This document shows positions 46,893-57,500 of a stretch of DNA of 64,000 nucleotides, piece by piece (the first letter of the stretch is position 1; every line of letters begins with the position of its first letter). Source of the stretch: Magnetococcales bacterium WMHbinv6 (GTDB lineage Bacteria > Pseudomonadota > Magnetococcia > Magnetococcales > Magnetaquicoccaceae); the NCBI GenBank assembly GCA_002753135.1, contig PDZV01000002.1:81718-145717 (forward strand). The letters run 5' to 3'. The translations under genes were made by a program, and so were the position numbers. The notes below the pieces were generated by a model, which was given only the letters and a program-made list of their open reading frames with translations, did not search any database and was not told the origin of the DNA.

Positions 46893-47288
46893 ATGGCAGA
46901 ACTCTTTTCCGCAGACTGGATGAACCGTTTCCAGGAAGAGTGGAACAAAGAGCCCGAGCTGACGGATCCGCTGGGTAAAATCAATTTCAATTCTACGATC
47001 GCCTACGGCATCGACGGTGAAAGCGCACCCCGTGGTGTGTTGGTCGTTGAACAGGGCCGGGTTGTCAAAAGCGGTGCCTTCAACGGAGAAACCCTCAACT
47101 GGGATCTGCGTGCCAGCCAGGAGAGTTGGGAAAAGTGGATCAGCAAAGGCATCGGCATGATGGGATTGGGCATGGCCTATACCACGCGCAAGCTCAAATT
47201 TGAGGTGGGTGATTATGGTGCCATGATTGCCGATCCGCGGATGGCTGGTCCCTTCATCAAGACCTTTGCGGTCATGGGACGGGTGTAA
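46893..47288 (+). CDS. SCP2-like sterol-transfer-family protein
   Basis: A 131-residue cytosolic protein with an SCP2-type lipid-binding fold: the N-terminal helix LFSADWMNRFQEEWNKEPEL, a central sheet (STIAYGIDGESAPRGVLVVE), DWVLRAS-like WDLRASQESWEKW, and a C-terminal helix with pocket-lining Gly/Met (KGIGMMGLGMAYTTRKLKFE). Such proteins bind hydrophobic ligands; none is identified here. AAGGAGAG lies before ATG 46893. It precedes the efflux adaptor gene, separated by an inverted repeat, so joint transcription is uncertain. Confidence 0.75.
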   Translation: MAELFSADWMNRFQEEWNKEPELTDPLGKINFNSTIAYGIDGESAPRGVLVVEQGRVVKSGAFNGETLNWDLRASQESWEKWISKGIGMMGLGMAYTTRKLKFEVGDYGAMIADPRMAGPFIKTFAVMGRV

Positions 47289-47423: not shown

Positions 47424-48623
47424 ATGTTGAAGAAAAGAATATTTTCCCTTGGCATGTCAGCCATCCTGGCCGGCTTCGCCTGCACACCTGCCTTGCTCTC
47501 TGCTGCTGGTTATTCGCTCTCTGCACCGGCAGCGGGTGTACTGATGGTCGAATCCAGCAATATCGGGGCTACGACCACCTTGGGTGGCACGGTTGTCCCT
47601 TACAAAGAGGTGGCCTTCACCGCACAAATGCCGGGTCGCGTTGTTTATCTGGGCGGTGTTGAGGGAGATTGGTTCAAAAAAGGTGACATTCTGGCCGCAC
47701 TGGATAACGACGATCTGTTGGCCAAACGTCGTTCAGCCCAGGCCGCTCTGGCCCAGGCAGAGGCCAACTGGCGCAACGCACGGGTACAATATACCCGCCA
47801 GGTCTATTCCGGTTCCACCATGGCCTCCGACAACACCGGCATGGCCATGCCACGCATGTTCGACCGCATGTTCACCATGCCGCTCAGCGACATGGTCGGC
47901 AACGATAATCCGGAACTGGCCCGCCGGGCACAAATTTATGCCCAGGGCACGGCCATCGACCAGGCACAACATGGTTTGGCGCAGGCCCAGGCCACCATTC
48001 AGGAGCTGGATGCCAAACTGCGGGATACCCGCTCGGTGGCCCCCTTCCCTGGCGTCATCCTCACCAAACATGTGGAAAAAGGGGACACGGTACAACCAGG
48101 CATGCCGTTACTGACCTTTGCCGATACGCGATCCCTGCAAGTCAAGGTGGATATTCCCGCCCGTCTGGTGCCCGGCATCAAAAAAGATATGATTCTGCCC
48201 TGAGAAATGGATGTCGGCGACTCCCGCATTGAAACCCGTGTGGCCCAAATCTATCCGATGGCCGATCCGCAACGGCACACCGTAACTGTCAAGCTGGATC
48301 TGCCCAAAGATTCTCCGGCTGGCCCGGGCATGTATGCAGAAATCATGATCCCGGATATTACCACCCCGATCAAAAGCATGCCGGTGATTCAAAAATCGGC
48401 AGTTCTCTGGCGTGGCAGTCTGCCGGCAGTGATGGTGGTTGGTGCCAACAAGGAGCCGGAACTGCGCATGATCCGTCTGGGCGGCCTGGTGGATGAAAAA
48501 ACCGTCAGCGTACTCTCCGGCTTGCAGGTCGGTGAGCAGATTCTGGCCAACCCGGCCCAAAGTACAGCTGCCGCCGGTTGGCGGGAACAGGGTGGACCGG
48601 AAGCAAAAGGGGTCACCCGTTAA
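47424..48623 (+). pseudogene. RND efflux periplasmic adaptor, interrupted by one in-frame TGA
   Basis: A membrane-fusion protein (HlyD/AcrA family) of 400 codons. A signal peptide (about 1-27) is followed by a barrel-sandwich half-motif (GGTVVPYKEVAFTAQMPG, then VEGDWFKKGDILAALDNDDL), a helical hairpin, the second lipoyl half (SVAPFPGVILTKHVEKGDTV) and a beta-barrel domain. At 48201-48203 the frame meets TGA (CCC TGA GAA), and the same frame then continues with normal adaptor sequence (VAQIYPMADPQRHTVTVKLD) to 48623. No frameshift is involved. It is a nonsense mutation, a base-call error, or readthrough; TGA is an ordinary stop elsewhere in the window. Confidence 0.85.
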
Positions 48624-48776
48624 AAGACGTTGTTTGACCGGTCAATGGCGGCAACGACAGCTCAGGGCAGGCTGGATGACAACAAACGGCACTGTGCCCG
48701 TTGATCTGTGGTTACCAACCTGGTACTGGATGGTTGCTGCTAACTCTTCTCTTGATACAGTGATGGTCACACTCTG

Positions 48777-51700
48777 ATGGGTAAATTATTCAGTAAAGCG
48801 GATATGCCACCTCCCCCGGAACTGCCTCAAAAAGATGTCACCAGCCATCTTGGGGTGGCCGGCAATATGGCCAAAATGTTTATTCACTCCCCCCTCTCCC
48901 CGCTGCTGCTTTTTGCCTGCCTGGGGATGGGTATCCTGGGATTGATTTTTACCCCTCGTCAGGAAGATCCGCAAATTTCCGTGCCCATGGTCGATGTGTT
49001 CGTGCATTACCCTGGTGCCTCGTCCGAACAGGTGACCGCCTTGGTAGCCGAACCCCTGGAACGGATCATGAGCGAAATTGCCGGGGTCAAACATGTCTAC
49101 TCGGCCTCACAACAGGGTCAGGCCATGGTGACCGTCGAATTTGTCGTCGGTCAGGATATGGAGGCCTCACTGGTCAAGTTGTACGACAAGCTTCATTCCA
49201 ACAAAGACAAAATTCCGCCGGGCGTCTCGGAACCTCTGGTCAAACCCAAGGCTGTTGATGATGTTCCGGTGGTCACTTTGACCTTGTGGTCCAAGGATAT
49301 CGATGATGCCGCTTTGCGGGTACTCTCCCTGGACCTGCTGCAGCAGATCAATGAAATTCCCAACACCAGCCAGGGTTTTGTCATTGGCGGACGGGCAGAA
49401 CAGATTCGTGTTGAGGTCTTTCCGGAACGTCTTTCTGGATATGGCATCAGCCTTGATCAAATTGCCCAAACCATCAAAACGGCCAACAGTGAAACCGGAT
49501 TGGGCAAGGTGGAGGCGGGAGATCAGGGCTTTAACGTCTATACCGGTGCTTTTTTGCGCACGGCCCAGGATGTGGGCCGCCTGATTGTCGGCATCCGTGG
49601 CAATGCTCCCATCTATGTGCGCGATGTGGCCAATGTCTTTTCCGGTCCAGAAGAGACCAGCCAGATGGTGACCTATGCCACCGGTCGTTCACGCCCGGAA
49701 AATTTGCCAGAAGCGGATGGCATGCCTGCCGTGACCATCGCTGTGGCCAAGAAAAAGGGTTCCAACGGGGTCACCGTGGCCCAGGGGGTATTGGATAAGG
49801 TCGAAGAGCTGAAAGGACGGGTGATTCCGAAAAATGTGCAGGTTTCCGTCACCCGCAACTACGGCGAAACCGCCAACGAAAAGGTGAACGAACTGCTCTT
49901 CAAACTGCTGGTTGCCACCCTGGCGGTCACTGTGCTGGTATGGTATGCCCTGGGTATCAAACCGGCCATTGTCACCTTGATTGTGATCCCAGTGGTGATC
50001 CTGATGACCGTCTTCGCGGCCTGGATCATGGGTTACACCATTGACCGGGTCAGTCTGTTTGCACTGATTTTTTCGATCGGTATTCTGGTCGATGACGCCA
50101 TTGTGGTGGTGGAAAACATCTACCGCCGCTGGTTGCTGGAAGACAAATGCTGCCCGATCATCTCCATCGATGCCGTGCGCGAAGTGGGCAATCCCACCAT
50201 TTTGGCCACTTTTACCGTAATTGCCGCCCTTTTGCCCATGGGCTTTGTCAGCGGCATGATGGGGCCCTACATGCGACCGATTCCGGCTTTGGGCTCGGTG
50301 GCCATGCTCTTTTCGCTCTTTGCCGCCTTCATTTTTACCCCATGGCTGGCGATGATGATCAAACCAAGCATGCGCTCCTTGCATACCCACTCGGAGGCAG
50401 AACATGCCACCTCTGAAAAACTGGAAAAGTTTTATCGCTACACCATCAATCAGTTGCTGGACCATCCCCGCAAGGGTTGGGGCTTCATGGGATTGCTGGT
50501 CGGCGGTTTTTTTGCCTCGCTGCTCTTTTTCTATACCACGGCTGTCACGGTCAAAATTCTCCCCTTGGACAACAAGCCGGAATTTAACGTGGTGATCAAT
50601 CTGAACGAAGGCACAGCCTTGCCGAAAACAGCCAATCTGGCCAATCAGATGACCAACATCATCCGGGACAAAATCCCCGAAGTGATTGCCATGCCTTCCT
50701 ATGTAGGAACCGCTTCACCCTTCAACTTTAACGGCATGGTGCGCCACTATTATCTGCGGCGCAACTCCTGGGAGGCGGATATTCAGGTCCAATTGATCCA
50801 CAAAAGCAAACGCAAAAGAACCAGCCATGATATTGCCGTGGAGGTGCGTGAGCTGTTGACACCCATCGCCAACAAAAGCAATGCCCGCATTCAGGTGGTG
50901 GAGATGCCGCCAGACGGACCGGTGCTGCAATCGGTGGTCGCAGAAGTGAGCGGTCCGGATGCGGTAACCCGCCGCCGGGTGGCTGCCGATATGCTTGGCA
51001 TGTTTGCCCGCAGCAAGTCGATTGTTGACATGGACAGTTATATGCAGCATGCCCATGAAATCTGGCGTTTTGAAGTGGATACGGAAAAGGCGGTGCGACG
51101 TGGTGTCTCTGTCGATACCATCAACCGCAATCTGGGCATGGCCATGGGCGGTGCGCAACTGGGTGATGTCAAGCGGGGTACCGTTTTGGAGCCGACCTAT
51201 ATCGTGATCCAGGTTCCGATGGAGGTGCGCTCAAAAATCTCCTCGTTGGGCGATTTGCCGATCTCCACCCCCAAGGGGGATACGGTGCCGTTGGGCGAGT
51301 TGGGGCGTTTTGTCAAAGCGATGAAGGATGACATTGTCTTCCACAAAGATTTGCGCCCGGTGGAGTATGTGACCGGTGAGGTGACGGGCAAGCTGGATGC
51401 CCCCATCTACGCCATGCTGGAAGTGGAAGATATGTTGAAAAAATATACCACGCCAGACGGTGTCACCATTGCCGGAGAGTTTATGGGACCACCAAAAACC
51501 TACAGCAAATCCGGTTTTGAGTGGACCGGCGAGTGGACCGTTACCTATGAAACGTTCCGCGACATGGGCCTGGCCTTTGGGGTTGCTTTGATTCTGATCT
51601 ATATGCTGGTGGTATGGGAGTTTGGCAATTTCATGTTGCCAGCCATTATCATGGCACCGATTCCCCTGACCCTGCTGGGTATCGTGCCTGGACACTGGCT

Positions 51701-52364
51701 GCTGGGGGCCAAATTTACCGCCACATCGATGATCGGCTTCATTGCCCTGGCCGGCATTATCGTGCGCAACTCCATTCTCCTGGTCGATTTTACCCAGCAG
51801 GAAATTTTGAAAGGGGTTTCGGTACGGGAGGCGGTGATTCTCTCCTGCAAGGCCAGAACCCGGCCCATTATCATCACTGCATTGGCTTTGGTCGCTGGTT
51901 CATCGGTGATTTTGGGTGACTATATTTTCCAGGGGATGGCCATCTCTCTGCTGTTTGGTGCGATGATTTCCACTCTGCTGACCTTGTTGGTCATTCCATT
52001 GGGTTGTGTCAGTGCGCAACGGGCTTTTGTGATGCCGAAAGCACCCTACCCCAAATCCATCCAAGTGGAGATAGAGCAGCCCGTTGCGGTCAACAACAGT
52101 GCAAAAACAGAGAATGTGCAACCGCCGATGAATACGCCAGCAGTGACCGCCGCCGACTCCCACCAACCAGTCGAGAGCCAGGCACCGCTCAATGAGGCAC
52201 CTCCTGGCGTCATTGAGCCACCTTATGAACCGGTTGAACAGGCCGAGATGGAGGCAGTTGCGGAGGGAGCGAATGCAAGCAGCAAAAAAGAGGGAGGCAA
52301 TCGCCGGGGTATTCGCCTGAAATCGTCGCAAAGCGAAACCTCCTCTGGTGGAGAAACTCTCTGA
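48777..52364 (+). CDS. RND-family efflux transporter, inner-membrane pump
   Basis: A proton-driven pump of 1195 residues with twelve expected helices and two large periplasmic loops. Family motifs include VDVFVHYPGASSEQVTALVA after helix 1, GILVDDAIVVVENIYRR in helix 4 (two proton-relay Asp), and the helix 10-11 region ATSMIGFIALAGIIVRNSIL. The last 120 residues (from about 1075) form a Pro/Ala/Glu-rich, probably disordered cytoplasmic tail, uncommon in this family. The adaptor gene upstream carries a nonsense codon. No outer-membrane TolC-type gene is adjacent. The ribosome site is weak. The substrate is unknown. Confidence 0.9.
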   Translation: MGKLFSKADMPPPPELPQKDVTSHLGVAGNMAKMFIHSPLSPLLLFACLGMGILGLIFTPRQEDPQISVPMVDVFVHYPGASSEQVTALVAEPLERIMSEIAGVKHVYSASQQGQAMVTVEFVVGQDMEASLVKLYDKLHSNKDKIPPGVSEPLVKPKAVDDVPVVTLTLWSKDIDDAALRVLSLDLLQQINEIPNTSQGFVIGGRAEQIRVEVFPERLSGYGISLDQIAQTIKTANSETGLGKVEAGDQGFNVYTGAFLRTAQDVGRLIVGIRGNAPIYVRDVANVFSGPEETSQMVTYATGRSRPENLPEADGMPAVTIAVAKKKGSNGVTVAQGVLDKVEELKGRVIPKNVQVSVTRNYGETANEKVNELLFKLLVATLAVTVLVWYALGIKPAIVTLIVIPVVILMTVFAAWIMGYTIDRVSLFALIFSIGILVDDAIVVVENIYRRWLLEDKCCPIISIDAVREVGNPTILATFTVIAALLPMGFVSGMMGPYMRPIPALGSVAMLFSLFAAFIFTPWLAMMIKPSMRSLHTHSEAEHATSEKLEKFYRYTINQLLDHPRKGWGFMGLLVGGFFASLLFFYTTAVTVKILPLDNKPEFNVVINLNEGTALPKTANLANQMTNIIRDKIPEVIAMPSYVGTASPFNFNGMVRHYYLRRNSWEADIQVQLIHKSKRKRTSHDIAVEVRELLTPIANKSNARIQVVEMPPDGPVLQSVVAEVSGPDAVTRRRVAADMLGMFARSKSIVDMDSYMQHAHEIWRFEVDTEKAVRRGVSVDTINRNLGMAMGGAQLGDVKRGTVLEPTYIVIQVPMEVRSKISSLGDLPISTPKGDTVPLGELGRFVKAMKDDIVFHKDLRPVEYVTGEVTGKLDAPIYAMLEVEDMLKKYTTPDGVTIAGEFMGPPKTYSKSGFEWTGEWTVTYETFRDMGLAFGVALILIYMLVVWEFGNFMLPAIIMAPIPLTLLGIVPGHWLLGAKFTATSMIGFIALAGIIVRNSILLVDFTQQEILKGVSVREAVILSCKARTRPIIITALALVAGSSVILGDYIFQGMAISLLFGAMISTLLTLLVIPLGCVSAQRAFVMPKAPYPKSIQVEIEQPVAVNNSAKTENVQPPMNTPAVTAADSHQPVESQAPLNEAPPGVIEPPYEPVEQAEMEAVAEGANASSKKEGGNRRGIRLKSSQSETSSGGETL

Positions 52365-52365
52365 G

Positions 52366-53139
52366 ATGCCAATCTCTCTGCACCGTGCCGAACCGGTTGC
52401 ACTTCTGACTGCACGGTTAAGGAGCGCAGAGACGAGGCCCGAAGCGCGGCCAGGCCAGCAATGGTGCCGCGATGTCCATACCCAGGCTGGCAGAGGTGCG
52501 CTGGCCAGCGGGGCTCTCCTGGCATGGCTTATCTGTGGCTGGCCTTTTTCCGGGCAGAGTGCCGCGCCGGAATGGGGCAACAATTATTATCGCGCCGACC
52601 CACCCCGGGGTGAAAGTTTTTCCATTGATCCCGGTCGCCAGCAACCGCAATGGCAGACGGACCGTTTTCACCGACGCCGAGAAGATGCGGGACAGGCGGA
52701 CCGCCCGGCAGGCCAATACCGTTATGCACCCAACTGGTCAGAGCATGAAGAGAATGAGCAACCGCTGAAAGAGCGGGAACGGTTTGACCATCGCCCTGGG
52801 GCAGAGGTCTCCCCTTTGTGGCGCAATGAAGATTTGAACCATCGACAACCGCCACGGCATAACAACGGTTACACCGATCCCGCCTTCTCCAATCGTTATC
52901 CCGAACGGCGTGACGAGGTACCGATGGTACCGCCCTATGGTGATTTCAACCGGGAGCGGTCGCGTTGGGAAACCCCTTTCTACCCGCAGGATCGGGAGAG
53001 ATCATTACGGGAATATTCTGTTGTTCCACCGAGTTTTTTTTCCCCATATGAAGAGGAACGTTTGTCTGCGCCGCCCTTGCGGCGACGTTTTCAACCCAAC
53101 ACCTATGACAGTGGGGAAAATTGGTGGGAAAGTCGATGA
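52366..53139 (+). CDS. Arg/Pro/Tyr-rich protein of unknown function
   Basis: A 257-residue protein with no recognised domain. An N-terminal hydrophobic segment (about 50-65: GALLAWLICGWPFSGQSAA) looks like a signal peptide after an unusually long charged leader; a later start may be real. The rest is low-complexity and rich in Arg, Pro, Glu, Asn and aromatic residues, with tracts such as RREDAGQADRPAG and RNEDLNHRQPPRHNNGYT, suggesting a disordered exported protein. ATG 52366 lies one base after the RND stop and GGAG is present upstream; the next gene overlaps its stop, so it is in the RND operon. Confidence 0.55.
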   Translation: MPISLHRAEPVALLTARLRSAETRPEARPGQQWCRDVHTQAGRGALASGALLAWLICGWPFSGQSAAPEWGNNYYRADPPRGESFSIDPGRQQPQWQTDRFHRRREDAGQADRPAGQYRYAPNWSEHEENEQPLKERERFDHRPGAEVSPLWRNEDLNHRQPPRHNNGYTDPAFSNRYPERRDEVPMVPPYGDFNRERSRWETPFYPQDRERSLREYSVVPPSFFSPYEEERLSAPPLRRRFQPNTYDSGENWWESR

Positions 53140-53756
53140 CACGACTGAGTGGCCTTGTTTTGTCTGTGGCCATGCTGCTGCCTGGCAAGCTGCAGGCCCT
53201 GCCTTCGGCCTTGGTGGAATTTTCGGCTGAGGTGACGCGCAGCGTTGCCACCCGTAACGGTACCAGTACGTCAGGAGCCATGTATGTTGGCAAGGAGGGT
53301 ATTCGTACCGAAAGCCGCCAGGATGATCAACCGATCTGGATGATTTTCAAACCGAAACAAAAGCTGTTCTGGACACTTTTTCCCAAACAACAGGTGTATA
53401 TGGAACGCAGCGGACTGGCGTTGGATTGGCCTCCGTTGCCCGAAGATGAACACAGCCCCTGCCGCAGCAAAAATTTTCGCTGCCAAAAATTGGGGCAAAA
53501 AGTGGTGCAGGAGCGCCACACCTGGCACTGGAACATTCAGGTTTTGACCGACAAAGGGGAGATGCCCTACGCGCAGTTATGGGTAGACCCGCGCCTGAAT
53601 GTGGCCATTCGGGAGAGCTATGCCGACGGTTTGACCATTGAAATGCACCATATTCGTGAAGCGCCTCAACCAGCTCATCTATTTGAAATACCATCTAATT
53701 TTTCTAAAATTGACCTTCCGGCGACCCCGACCGCAGACAAACCCCCTGCCAAATAG
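53136..53756 (+). CDS. Periplasmic protein resembling DUF4412/LolA-like proteins
   Basis: A 206-residue exported protein: signal peptide MTRLSGLVLSVAMLLPGKLQA, then a mostly beta domain. The pattern EFSAEVTRSVATRNG, GAMYVGKEGIRTESR, PIWMIFKPKQKLFWTLFPKQ and a Tyr is that of DUF4412-like proteins, distantly related to LolA lipoprotein carriers. Two Cys (CRSKNFRC) may form a disulfide. The ATG overlaps the stop of the previous gene (ATGA), which supports translational coupling and membership of the efflux/envelope operon. Ligand unknown. Confidence 0.65.
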   Translation: MTRLSGLVLSVAMLLPGKLQALPSALVEFSAEVTRSVATRNGTSTSGAMYVGKEGIRTESRQDDQPIWMIFKPKQKLFWTLFPKQQVYMERSGLALDWPPLPEDEHSPCRSKNFRCQKLGQKVVQERHTWHWNIQVLTDKGEMPYAQLWVDPRLNVAIRESYADGLTIEMHHIREAPQPAHLFEIPSNFSKIDLPATPTADKPPAK

Positions 53757-53788
53757 TTGCTTTTTTGTACAGTCATGCAAATTTTTCG

Positions 53789-53817
53789 TTGCAATGGTTT
53801 CTCGATCACGCTATATT
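53789..53817 (+). promoter_or_regulatory. sigma70-type promoter upstream of the globule-protein genes
   Basis: TTGCAA (53789-53794), 17 bases, TATATT (53812-53817), in an AT-rich gap of 190 bases. It could drive 53946-55712 as a unit. Confidence 0.55.
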
Positions 53818-53945
53818 AGATCTTAATAATATTCTTATGTTTATAATTCCTTTTTATCCTGGCATTATTTAGTACGAGTGACGATACTTGGGGGGTAGGG
53901 TTTGCTTTTGTGGTGTTATCTGTCTTACTGCTTCCCGGTTGCGCT

Positions 53946-54752
53946 ATGAACAGTTCAATGCAAAATTTGCGTTTAGGAAATCGCACGATTGTTTCCGTGT
54001 TGGCCATATGGTTGGGTTTAACGGCTCAGACGGCCTGTGCTGCTGCAATGGAGGCACCGTCTGACAAGGAACTCAGTACCATGGGACAGGGGTTCGGCAA
54101 ATTTGTCGGTTCATTCATGCGGCAAATGCAATCCGACGAAGAGAAAAAGGGGGTGCCTGCGGGTGGAGAAGAGCGGCGCTTGATTGAGCGACCCGCCAGC
54201 AAGGCCCCTGAGTGGCCGAGCGCTCGAGAACGGGATGAGGATGCTGGCAGCCACGGTGCAAGGCAGAGGCAACAGGCACGGCAAAATCACCACCCCCTCT
54301 ATGATCCGTGGGGAGCCAGTTGGTGGAACGATCCGGCTTTTGGCTATGATCCCTGGGGACGTGGCAACAGCTGGGTCGATCATGATTGGCAGCGTCGCCG
54401 TTGGCAGTATGGTTGGAACTATGGGCAAACCCCATCGTATGCCGCGCCTTACGGTAGCACGGGACACCCCTATGGCAATGGGGCCCCCTATCCGGGAGAG
54501 TATGAAGCGCTATCCCCCGGTGATGAAGGAGGACGGTGGCCGGGCAGTGGTTATGGCCAGCTTCCTTATGGCCAGGAACGGGGATGGTATGCTCCATATG
54601 ATAACCATCGCAATGCCTTCAACAATGAATGGTTGCGACCACGCGATGAACGGCAACAGCCAGCGGCGGATGAGTTTCTGCCCGGCTCCCGGTCAGGGGA
54701 GAGTTGGCCAGCCAATAACCGGGCACGTGAGCAACGCTGGTACCGGGAGTGA
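53946..54752 (+). CDS. Secreted Trp/Tyr/Gly/Pro-rich protein of unknown function
   Basis: A 268-residue protein with a signal peptide (RTIVSVLAIWLGLTAQTACAAA) and a mature chain that becomes low-complexity, with repeats of the type YDPWGASWWNDP, GYDPWGRGNSW, YGQTPSYAAPYGS and YGQLPYGQERGWYAPY. It has no recognised domain, but the aromatic/Gly composition is like that of the following sulfur-globule-type proteins. The start is uncertain: ATG 53946 gives a clean signal peptide, whereas GTG 53910 has a stronger ribosome site (GGGGGGTAGGG) and would add LLLPGC, a lipobox-like motif. It precedes the globule genes by 43 bases. Confidence 0.6.
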   Translation: MNSSMQNLRLGNRTIVSVLAIWLGLTAQTACAAAMEAPSDKELSTMGQGFGKFVGSFMRQMQSDEEKKGVPAGGEERRLIERPASKAPEWPSARERDEDAGSHGARQRQQARQNHHPLYDPWGASWWNDPAFGYDPWGRGNSWVDHDWQRRRWQYGWNYGQTPSYAAPYGSTGHPYGNGAPYPGEYEALSPGDEGGRWPGSGYGQLPYGQERGWYAPYDNHRNAFNNEWLRPRDERQQPAADEFLPGSRSGESWPANNRAREQRWYRE

Positions 54753-54795
54753 TGGTTGGCATATCAAGGCTTATTGGTAAAAAGGAGGCAACGAC

Positions 54796-55209
54796 ATGCA
54801 ACAAAAGCTGCGCATTGCCCTGCTGTCAATTTTTCTGATGGTGGCCGGAATGGGGGTCGCCACGACCTCGTACGCATGGGGTGGTTGGCCAGGGTCGCCG
54901 TGGGGAGGCGCTCCCGGAGGATGGTGGCCTGGTAACGGTTGGAATAACAACGCAAACAATAACTGGAATAACGGCTGGGCGAACAACTCGCTGTGGAACG
55001 GTTTGCTGAACGGACGTGGCAAGGTCAACTTCTATGTGGAAGCCGATGTCGACGGCATGATGGATTCACTTTGGGACAACGCTTGGAACAACCGTTGGAA
55101 CAATGGTTGGAATAACGGATGGAGAAATGGATGGCATCCTGGCCGCTATCCTGGTTGGGGCGGCCCTGGTTGGGGCGGCCCTGGTCGGGGCCCTGGCTGG
55201 GGATGGTAG
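54796..55209 (+). CDS. Sulfur-globule-type structural protein, first copy
   Basis: A 137-residue exported protein: signal peptide about 1-27 (ALLSIFLMVAGMGVATTSYA), then chains rich in Trp, Gly and Asn, e.g. WNNNANNNWNNGWANN and NRWNNGWNNGWRNGWHPG. The GRGKVNFYVEADVDG segment matches the central F-x-x-D-type signature of sulfur globule family proteins, and the tail is Gly/Pro/Trp (PGWGGPGWGGPGRG). Such proteins form the envelope of periplasmic sulfur globules in Chromatium-type bacteria. AAAAAGGAGG precedes the ATG. Here Trp replaces the usual Tyr as main aromatic. Function is by resemblance. Confidence 0.75.
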   Translation: MQQKLRIALLSIFLMVAGMGVATTSYAWGGWPGSPWGGAPGGWWPGNGWNNNANNNWNNGWANNSLWNGLLNGRGKVNFYVEADVDGMMDSLWDNAWNNRWNNGWNNGWRNGWHPGRYPGWGGPGWGGPGRGPGWGW

Positions 55210-55280
55210 TCACCGCCTGATTGATCGCAAGGGTGACAGGTAAGCAGTTTTTTGCAGCTCACTTTGATGGAGTACATAGA

Positions 55281-55712
55281 ATGAAAAAAGGTTTGAGTGC
55301 TTTGGCAGTGGCCGCCCTGTTGGGAAGTGCCGCGTTTTTTACCGCTGAAACAGCTTCTGCTTGGGGTCCCGGTTGGGGCGGTCCGGGTTGGAATAACGGT
55401 TGGGGCAACAACAATTGGGGCAACAACTGGGGCAATAATGGTTATGGCAACGGCAATGGCCGCGCTCGTGGCAATTTTGGTTTCAACATGAGTGGTGATG
55501 CCGATGGCGGTGGTTGGGGTAACAATAACTGGAACAACAGCAATAACTGGAACAATGGCTGGAACAATGGCTGGCATCCGGGTTATGGCTATGGTCCGGG
55601 TTGGGGTGGTCCCCATGGTGGTCCTTGGGGCGCTCCTGGTTATGGTCCGGCCTGGGGTGGTCCGAACGCACCTGTCGCTCCCCAAGCAGCTCCGCAAGCC
55701 GAAGCCAAATAA
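55281..55712 (+). CDS. Sulfur-globule-type structural protein, second copy
   Basis: A 143-residue exported protein with signal peptide MKKGLSALAVAALLGSAAFF (cut after ASA near 27). The mature part has the repeats GWGNNNWGNNWGNNGYGNG and NWNNGWNNGWHPGYGYGPG, the sulfur globule family signature ARGNFGFNMSGDADG, and the typical Ala/Pro/Val-rich C-terminus APVAPQAAPQAEAK. It is closer to known sulfur globule proteins than its upstream neighbour, with which it shares NNGWNNGWHPG, so the two are probably an old tandem duplication. A terminator follows at 55889. Confidence 0.82.
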   Translation: MKKGLSALAVAALLGSAAFFTAETASAWGPGWGGPGWNNGWGNNNWGNNWGNNGYGNGNGRARGNFGFNMSGDADGGGWGNNNWNNSNNWNNGWNNGWHPGYGYGPGWGGPHGGPWGAPGYGPAWGGPNAPVAPQAAPQAEAK

Positions 55713-56072
55713 TCCGGCTGTTTTTGATCGCGATGAGTCGGTTTGAAAAGCGTTTGTGCAAGCGCGCGACAACCGGACAGGTTTCGAGCGGCGCACAGCA
55801 GAAAGCGGTGCCAATGAAACGGCAGGCAGGCACCACAAACCGTACCGCAGCGCAAAATCAGAGCCTGCAGGCGATTTGAGTATGGATGAAAAAGGGGATG
55901 TGATGCACGCATCCCCTTTTTTATTTTTTGCCTTCGGTGTAGATGGACGGTTTTCAAACACCTGGAAAACCCTGTAATCTTATGCAGCCGCTCGACTGGA
56001 CTGCGGATGGCATGCCAGCGGCTGCGGGAGAACCACTTTGTTGCCACCGGGTCAATTTGGATGTAACCAGCC
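55713..56072. other. Intergenic stretch with terminator
   Basis: No supported gene between the second globule gene and the ParA-like gene. The terminator at 55889-55928 ends the globule transcript. A promoter for the ParA-like gene must lie in the last 140 bases but no clear hexamers were found. Confidence 0.5.
55889..55928 (+). terminator. Rho-independent terminator after the sulfur-globule genes
   Basis: AAAAGGGGATG pairs with CATCCCCTTTT around a 9-base loop (55890-55920) and runs into a T-rich tract. It may act in both directions because of the flanking A and T runs. Confidence 0.9.
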
Positions 56073-56744
56073 ATGATTACTGTGATTGGCAATCTCAAGG
56101 GCGGATGTGGAAAAAGCACCATCACCTTCAACCTGGCCATTTGGTTGGCCGGGGCCGGGGAAAATGTGGTCGCTTTTGATCTGGATCCGCAGGCCACATT
56201 AAGCGATGTGGCCGATGTTCGTCAGGAAGAAGGGGTACTGCCCGCCATCACCGTCTATCGTCCAGAGAGTAACCCGACCAAAATTATGCGGGAACATCAG
56301 GGCGAAGTGTTGGTGGATGTGGGTGCCTCCAACTTGTGGGCCATGCGGCAGGCGATTGCCATGGCGCAACGTATTTTGGTTCCGGTGCCTCCCAGTCAAG
56401 CGGATGTCTGGTCTACGGCCCGTTTTCGCGATATTATTAACGAAACCGTAATCAACCGCAAAGAACCGCCGGAAATTTTGCTGTTCATCAACCGGGCCGA
56501 CACCCACCCAGGGATCAGGGAATCCCGTGAAACGGAAAGTGCTTTGGCCTCGTTGGCCGGGGTGACGTTGTTGGAAAACCGCATCAGTCAACGCACAGCC
56601 TACCGTCGTTCCTTCAGCGAAGGTCGTGCCGTCTTTGAACTGAGCGGAAGCAATAAAGCGGCAGAAGAGTTTTTGCAACTGGCAGCCCGTCTTTATCCAG
56701 AGCTGCCGCCCTTCAAAAAGAAAAGCAACAAGGCACAGCATTAA
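56073..56744 (+). CDS. Orphan ParA/MinD-like ATPase
   Basis: A 223-residue deviant-Walker ATPase. The P-loop is GNLKGGCGKSTITFNLA near residues 6-22, with the signature Lys of ParA proteins; FDLDPQATLSDVADVR holds the A' Asp, and the Walker B strand reads VLVDVGASN instead of the common DTPP. The helical C-terminal part is shorter than in chromosomal ParA (about 255) and there is no N-terminal HTH. No parB or parS is adjacent; the next gene is a membrane coiled-coil protein 18 bases away. This setting is like cargo-positioning ParA homologues (McdA, PpfA type); the cargo is unknown. Confidence 0.82.
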   Translation: MITVIGNLKGGCGKSTITFNLAIWLAGAGENVVAFDLDPQATLSDVADVRQEEGVLPAITVYRPESNPTKIMREHQGEVLVDVGASNLWAMRQAIAMAQRILVPVPPSQADVWSTARFRDIINETVINRKEPPEILLFINRADTHPGIRESRETESALASLAGVTLLENRISQRTAYRRSFSEGRAVFELSGSNKAAEEFLQLAARLYPELPPFKKKSNKAQH

Positions 56745-56762
56745 ACAAGGAGTCCCCTTCCG

Positions 56763-57500
56763 ATGACGGATGTGAATAGCCCAAACGATTCTTCTTCCCC
56801 GCAGCAGCCTTGTGCCGATGAGGGAGGGAACAGTGAGCGGAGTGCGGGACATACCCGTTCTCATAAGCATTATCCGGTGATTCCGGCGGGTAAGTTTGCC
56901 GAATGTGGTGACTGTTCCGGAATGGTATTGGCGGAATTTGCCAAAAGTTTCGACAAGAGCGCACGTCGCTGGGAACTGATTGTCTATCCTTCCCTGTTTG
57001 CCTTCATCATTTTGGCCATGTACGGCTTTTTTCTGATCTATAGCCTGACGCAGGATATTCGCACCATGGCCTCATCGATTGACCCGAAAATGGGCATCAA
57101 CATGGGCAGTCTCTCCACCAACGTCGGGCTGTTGGCCACCAATATTGAACTGATGTCGACCCATCTGGAGTATATCAGTGACAACATGGAGACCATGTCG
57201 GTGGATCTGCAGAGTGTTTCGACCAATATGGAGCAGATGACCGATACCATCCAGGGGATGGGCAACAGTGTCAGTCAGATGGAACGGTCCACCGCGGATA
57301 TGAACCGCAACATGGCCGCCATGACCAAAACGGTGGATAACATGTCCAGCAAATTGAATTTGCTGGTACCCATGGCCAAAGACATGAACGGTTTGGCCCA
57401 AGCCATTCATGCCATCACCGGTGCCGTCCATGTCATGAGCTATGACATGAACAGCGCCACCCGACCCATGAGCTTTATGAACCGATTTATGCCGTGGTAA
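56763..57500 (+). CDS. Membrane-anchored protein with Met at heptad-like intervals
   Basis: A 245-residue protein of no recognised family. Residues 1-75 are hydrophilic with a Cys pair (ECGDCSG near 47-53); one membrane helix follows (about 76-98, LIVYPSLFAFIILAMYGFFL); then about 140 residues of coiled coil with Met at about seven-residue spacing (NMETMSVDLQSVSTNMEQM, DTIQGMGNSVSQMERS, NMAAMTKTVDNMSS). Positive residues before the helix suggest N-terminus inside, coil outside the inner membrane. It is in an operon with the ParA-like gene and AAGGAG precedes ATG 56763. It could be the membrane receptor or cargo adaptor for that ATPase. Confidence 0.65.
   Translation: MTDVNSPNDSSSPQQPCADEGGNSERSAGHTRSHKHYPVIPAGKFAECGDCSGMVLAEFAKSFDKSARRWELIVYPSLFAFIILAMYGFFLIYSLTQDIRTMASSIDPKMGINMGSLSTNVGLLATNIELMSTHLEYISDNMETMSVDLQSVSTNMEQMTDTIQGMGNSVSQMERSTADMNRNMAAMTKTVDNMSSKLNLLVPMAKDMNGLAQAIHAITGAVHVMSYDMNSATRPMSFMNRFMPW

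Follow-up and report, generated by a model that had tools for sequence, protein, structure and literature searches.

In Allochromatium vinosum, the sulfur globules of the periplasm are coated by secreted sulfur globule proteins (SGPs), among them SgpA and SgpB (CV1 and CV2), which are assigned to Pfam family PF17228. SgpD (Alvin_2515) of the same species has been proven on globules; it is secreted, its gene has a promoter and terminator of its own and forms its own transcription unit, and it adjoins a gene for a hydrophobic/amphiphilic exporter (PMC10386293). Little is known about the nucleation and coating of periplasmic globules, about their placement in the cell or about their partitioning when it divides; research has so far concentrated on the coat proteins. 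The open papers that we searched describe no globule positioning by ParA, and none of them links sulfur globules with ParA plus RND, with HAE1 or with the Magnetococcales. A block of genes that occurs in three classes, and in which putative coat proteins are encoded alongside a pump, an ATPase of the ParA type and a coiled-coil membrane protein, would supply named candidates for these steps.

The block lies in a stretch of 64,000 nucleotides, here called the window, from a congener of Ca. Magnetaquicoccus inordinatus UR-1 (Magnetococcales). At its center are two small genes on the forward strand, separated by 71 bp. Protein A (54796-55209, 137 aa) is an exported Trp/Asn/Gly-rich protein ending in GWGW, while protein B (55281-55712, 143 aa) combines Trp/Asn-rich repeats with a GNFGFNMSGD core. 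Reading by eye gives each a Sec-type signal peptide, with TTSYA followed by WGGW in A and ETASA followed by WGPG in B, and thus the traits of an SGP, a small exported protein of Gly/aromatic repeats. Mature A (110 aa) contains 28 Gly, 22 Asn, 19 Trp and 2 Tyr, mature B (116 aa) 35 Gly, 25 Asn, 14 Trp and 4 Tyr, and Tandem Repeats Finder detects arrays of 12 bp, or four codons, within both genes. All of this agrees with the first-pass annotation of the window, which had described a tandem of exported proteins with Trp/Asn repeats.

Of 61 relatives, 36 have homologues of A and B (up to 82% identity), every one of them in the order of the window's genome, which marks the two as genuine genes rather than chance reading frames. 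Within an independent collection, 16 Magnetococcales loci hold both types, told apart by the C-terminal Trp, and A lies 5' of B in every one of them. Further paralogues of B are found on contigs C2 and C34 of the same genome, with no telling neighbors. A search of plasmid records returned no homologue, and NCBIfam no match for A, B or their exported neighbors. AF2 models B as unfolded except for the signal helix (pLDDT 46.9), a prediction consistent with a repeat protein that becomes ordered only on a surface.

The first-pass annotation had also seen a sulfur globule family signature in the pair and proposed profile searches as a check. Taken directly, the signature falls short: B scores 17.5 bits against PF17228, under the curated cutoff of 26.7 bits and hence outside the family by that measure, and the Pfam profile search gave no match for A. 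Homologues in the same position do reach the family. In genome G027 the second gene of the tandem, the counterpart of B, scores 64.9 bits and the counterpart of A 21.3 bits; counterparts of B also pass the cutoff in loci L167 (34.8), L172 (31.0), L222 (33.2), L225 (41.6) and L231 (56.2 bits), and SGPs scoring 31-56 bits are encoded by most of the gammaproteobacterial loci in which the genes are ordered alike.

As E-values are unreliable for low-complexity proteins, scores were calibrated on dipeptide-preserving shuffles. Shuffled SGPs retain no match to PF17228. A profile was built from the SGPs of G027 and other genomes of family f11, of Gammaproteobacteria and of G231, a genome of another class; most of these exceed the Pfam cutoff, and the training sets here are small and chosen by the analyst. 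This profile scores mature B at 44.4 bits, compared with -26 ± 5.6 for its 200 shuffles (maximum -8.8), none of which reaches B, so that the relation of B to accepted SGPs extends beyond composition. A scores -25.6 bits, equaled or bettered by 26 of its 200 shuffles. In the reverse direction, a profile of the B family from which the window and family f11 had been left out separates the SGPs of G027, G231 and two of three gammaproteobacterial loci from their shuffles, the third (L170) not being separated. The same profile gives A 42.6 bits, a score attained by 0 of 200 shuffles, and a profile-profile comparison of A with B yields a probability of 99.9. On these profile, shuffle and profile-profile results, B is by sequence relation a member of the SGP family and A its tandem paralogue, linked to SGPs through B only. 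It is probable that A has drifted further than B from the family.

Could the likeness be one of composition alone? A and B might be structural proteins of the envelope or matrix, forming a surface coat or an adhesive from Gly/aromatic repeats. Their low-complexity composition would suit such a role, as would the score of B below the Pfam cutoff, the unrecognized A and the missing fold in the AF2 model. Against this stand the shuffles, of residues as well as dipeptides, which fail to match at equal composition, and the homologues in the same position that clear the SGP cutoff. We consider this alternative unlikely and return to it with the distribution of the cluster.

The dominance of Trp with Asn, regarded by the first-pass annotation as a departure from known globule proteins, turns out to be a matter of extent. 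Blocks of the form WNNNGWGNNGW are a regular N-terminal part of SGPs in several Gammaproteobacteria; one of them (L231:8269-8706) begins with such a block and ends in a Tyr/Gly block. In A and B the Trp/Asn block is stretched over most of the chain. The pair thus represents a shift along a continuum and no new class, and would indicate that Trp-Asn repeats are able to replace Tyr-Gly repeats in a globule coat.

The surrounding genes, all on the forward strand, form a block. It is preceded by a gene for a small protein (46893-47288; MAELFSADWM..., SCP2-like by eye) without a match in Pfam or NCBIfam; among 20 gammaproteobacterial loci, 5 have it next to the pump genes, as do several loci of Magnetococcales. 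The block itself opens with an RND membrane-fusion protein (MFP, 47424-48623; HlyD_3 and HlyD_D23 matches in the N-terminal part). An in-frame TGA at 48201-48203, where UR-1 has GCC, splits this gene, and the frame goes on behind it; the TGA is either a nonsense mutation or a sequence error, and may mean that the genome lacks an intact fusion protein. An AcrB-type RND permease follows (48777-52364; ACR_tran, 7e-149). Its stop codon is overlapped or abutted by the start of an exported Tyr/Trp/Pro/Arg-rich protein (52366-53139), which has no family match in NCBIfam or Pfam and a homologue of 35-42% identity at the same place in the closest relatives. Next comes a periplasmic-type DUF4412 protein (53136-53756; PF14371, 22.9 bits at a cutoff of 21.6). 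These overlapping genes confirm the operon of a pump and two exported proteins that had been described in front of the pair.

Between this operon and A lies a gene for an exported Trp/Tyr/Pro-rich protein (53946-54752), the aromatic secreted product already recognized there, with homologues of 24-57% identity in the same position across the order. The promoter that the first-pass annotation had assigned to the pair did not hold up: the weak promoter-like site at 53789-53817 (9 of 12 sigma-70 matches) is indistinguishable from chance, four such sites being found where 1.9 ± 1.1 are expected. The terminator behind the pair fared better. An intrinsic terminator at 55884-55926 (+) folds with -27.2 kcal/mol (z -6.3), and a hairpin stem with a following T run is likewise present 3' of B in close relatives. 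Two genes complete the block, a ParA-like ATPase (56073-56744) with the P-loop KGGCGKST, matches to CbiA, AAA_31 and MipZ and ParF as best PDB hit (4dzz, E 2e-10), and a membrane-anchored coiled-coil protein, cc (56763-57500). The latter has a mean column identity of 66% in an alignment across the order, is 87% identical to its counterpart on UR-1 contig NZ_RXIU01000067 and is modeled by AF2 as long helices (pLDDT 61.8).

The neighborhood comparison proposed in the first-pass annotation shows that this block is kept well beyond the window. Families of Magnetococcales hold together the MFP, the RND permease, the first exported protein, DUF4412, the second exported protein, A, B, ParA and cc (47424-57500), with the pump genes on the other side or strand in some families (L094, L185, L186 and L188). 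In the position beyond cc, DAHP synthase, carbonic anhydrase and kinase genes were seen in no genus but the window's. Of 48 genomes of the order, 39 contain a high-scoring cc, and when genome contigs were scanned with cc, metagenome-assembled genomes (MAGs) of Gammaproteobacteria came up as well. Their loci encode an RND permease, an SGP, DUF4412, ParA, a TPR protein, a DUF302 protein, cc and a dynamin-like GTPase; the permease of the window is 57% identical to theirs, its ParA 50-52% and its cc 35-39%. Among 20 gammaproteobacterial cc loci with flanks, at least 12 have MFP and RND, at least 9 ParA, at least 9 DUF4412, at least 10 the GTPase and at least 5 an SGP by profile, all lower bounds as several contigs are short. 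Wherever the SGP is detected, it directly precedes DUF4412.

A related set without ParA is present in G231, with MFP, an RND permease (64% identical to that of the window), an exported protein, an SGP, DUF4412, a TPR protein, the GTPase and a short coiled-coil protein. A search for cc in the class of G231 found it in 0 of 289 genomes, with no positive by which to calibrate the search. DUF4412 is a conserved member in the Magnetococcales, the gammaproteobacterial loci and G231, and the gene set as such extends beyond one order. The dynamin-like GTPase (for example L170:8598-10109 and L177:6620-8230), which might act on globule membranes, has a homologue in the window's genome that lies apart on another contig (G000:C27:82379-83851).

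The host has the genes of a Dsr pathway of sulfur oxidation. Its genome carries two loci of dsrAB type, each with a dsrA above the cutoff (G000:C2:20293-21441 and G000:C47:59008-60162) and one of them followed by a dsrL-like gene, as well as sat, aprB and aprA; the oxidative direction is taken from the description of UR-1, which has two dsrABL copies, dsrEFH and sat-aprAB (PMC6783814). The second dsr copy is reported there as a separate branch of unconfirmed type (PMC6783814). Two types of dsrA can be told apart by length, about 445 and 412 aa, and several relatives appear to have the longer type only. For soxB, only weak matches well below the cutoff were obtained in the window's genus. The sat gene at the right edge of the window, counted into the cluster by the first-pass annotation, does begin an operon sat-aprB-aprA that continues just outside (L091:440-4156). 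Its linkage is not maintained even within the same genus, which rules it out as a member.

Across genomes, the cluster's marker cc is associated with dsrA. In a sample of 293 genomes of the gammaproteobacterial class, dsrA is present in 48 of 55 cc carriers and in 48 of 237 non-carriers (p about 1e-20, a value that ignores shared ancestry and concerns cc, not SGP). Among the nine MAGs to which cc led, dsrA exceeds the cutoff in seven. This co-occurrence speaks further against a purely structural envelope role of A and B, although genome G032, which has SGP-like genes and no dsrA over the cutoff, would be in keeping with it. In G003, a genome of the window's genus that is 96% complete, dsrA, the SGP-like genes (B) and cc are all absent, an apparent joint loss.

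The distribution of cc also bears on a second alternative, in which the RND pump, ParA and cc form a general system for envelope export or organization, with A, B, DUF4412 and the other exported proteins as cargo or clients and sulfur storage as one use only. RND, ParA and cc do stand together where no SGP is detected, both in L213 and in L230; the latter belongs to G886, a dsrA-negative gammaproteobacterium, and has no detected DUF4412 either. G026 retains ParA and cc with no SGP in the stretch read and no dsrA over the cutoff. The window's own genome has a further TolC-MFP-RND operon with genes for two coiled-coil proteins of the cc kind behind it, again without SGP (L183, G000:C32:6000-22000), which suggests that proteins of the cc type may be partners of RND pumps in general. 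The pump-ParA-cc part may have a wider role, given G886. As an account of the whole locus, though, we find a general system rather improbable in view of the strong co-occurrence of cc with dsrA and of the fixed position of the SGP before DUF4412 in gammaproteobacterial loci. A third alternative, that A and B serve the formation of magnetosomes or polyphosphate inclusions, draws on the relatives being magnetotactic cocci, whose order is noted for inclusions of either kind (PMC6783814). Reading through the cluster, we noticed no magnetosome or polyphosphate gene, and homologous clusters exist in Gammaproteobacteria, where cc tracks dsrA; this alternative appears very improbable.

By analogy with the globules of A. 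vinosum, the most likely role of A and B is that of coat proteins, and we consider it probable that they coat periplasmic sulfur globules as part of a conserved globule-handling locus. Exported by Sec and remaining largely unfolded, their Trp/Asn/Gly repeats would bind and cover the sulfur that sulfide oxidation yields in the periplasm, up to its consumption by the Dsr system. The RND pump with its fusion protein, DUF4412 and the other exported proteins would work in the envelope, while a probable task of the ParA-like ATPase and cc would be to place or tether the coated globules, or else to organize the pump. This globule reading is supported by the homologues above the SGP cutoff, the shuffle controls, the recurrence of the cluster in three classes and the tracking of dsrA by cc. 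Points against it are the score of B under the Pfam cutoff, the failure of the SGP profile to recognize A, the lack of dsrA in G032 and G026, and micrographs of UR-1 in which no sulfur globules were seen (PMC6783814). The idea of a cluster that builds and possibly services globules, put forward in the first-pass annotation, is supported at its core, with sat left outside. More tentatively, and with somewhat less than even confidence, the locus might represent an undescribed system of globule biogenesis and positioning in at least three classes: RND and DUF4412 at the envelope, SGPs on the sulfur, and the ParA-like ATPase with its membrane coiled-coil partner, joined by the dynamin-like GTPase and the TPR protein in Gammaproteobacteria and G231, to space, anchor or remodel the globule compartment.

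How does this locus compare with described systems? SgpA and SgpB share with A and B the export by Sec, a length of about 110-145 aa, repeats of Gly, aromatic residues and Asn and an origin in dsr genomes, and homologues of B from the same block score above the Pfam cutoff of their family. They differ in their Tyr-Gly repeats, where the window pair has Trp-Asn repeats over most of its length, and A and B sit in a pump/ParA cluster and match the family at 17.5 bits (B) or not at all (A). The window's ParA resembles cargo-positioning ATPases of the ParA/MipZ type in its KGG.GKST P-loop, in its best PDB matches, ParF and ParA, and in the adjacent gene for a coiled-coil partner, but its 136 bits against the NCBIfam ParA_partition equivalog stay below the cutoff of 180. 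Similarly, the pump shares the operon of permease and membrane-fusion protein with HAE/AcrB-type RND pumps, but lies far below the curated multidrug pump models (444 bits at a cutoff of 1250) and, unlike those pumps, is encoded together with globule proteins. SgpD, compared here by description, is a Pro-patterned protein with helices and in this respect closer to the exported neighbors that precede A than to the pair itself; like A and B, it is a secreted protein encoded beside an exporter.
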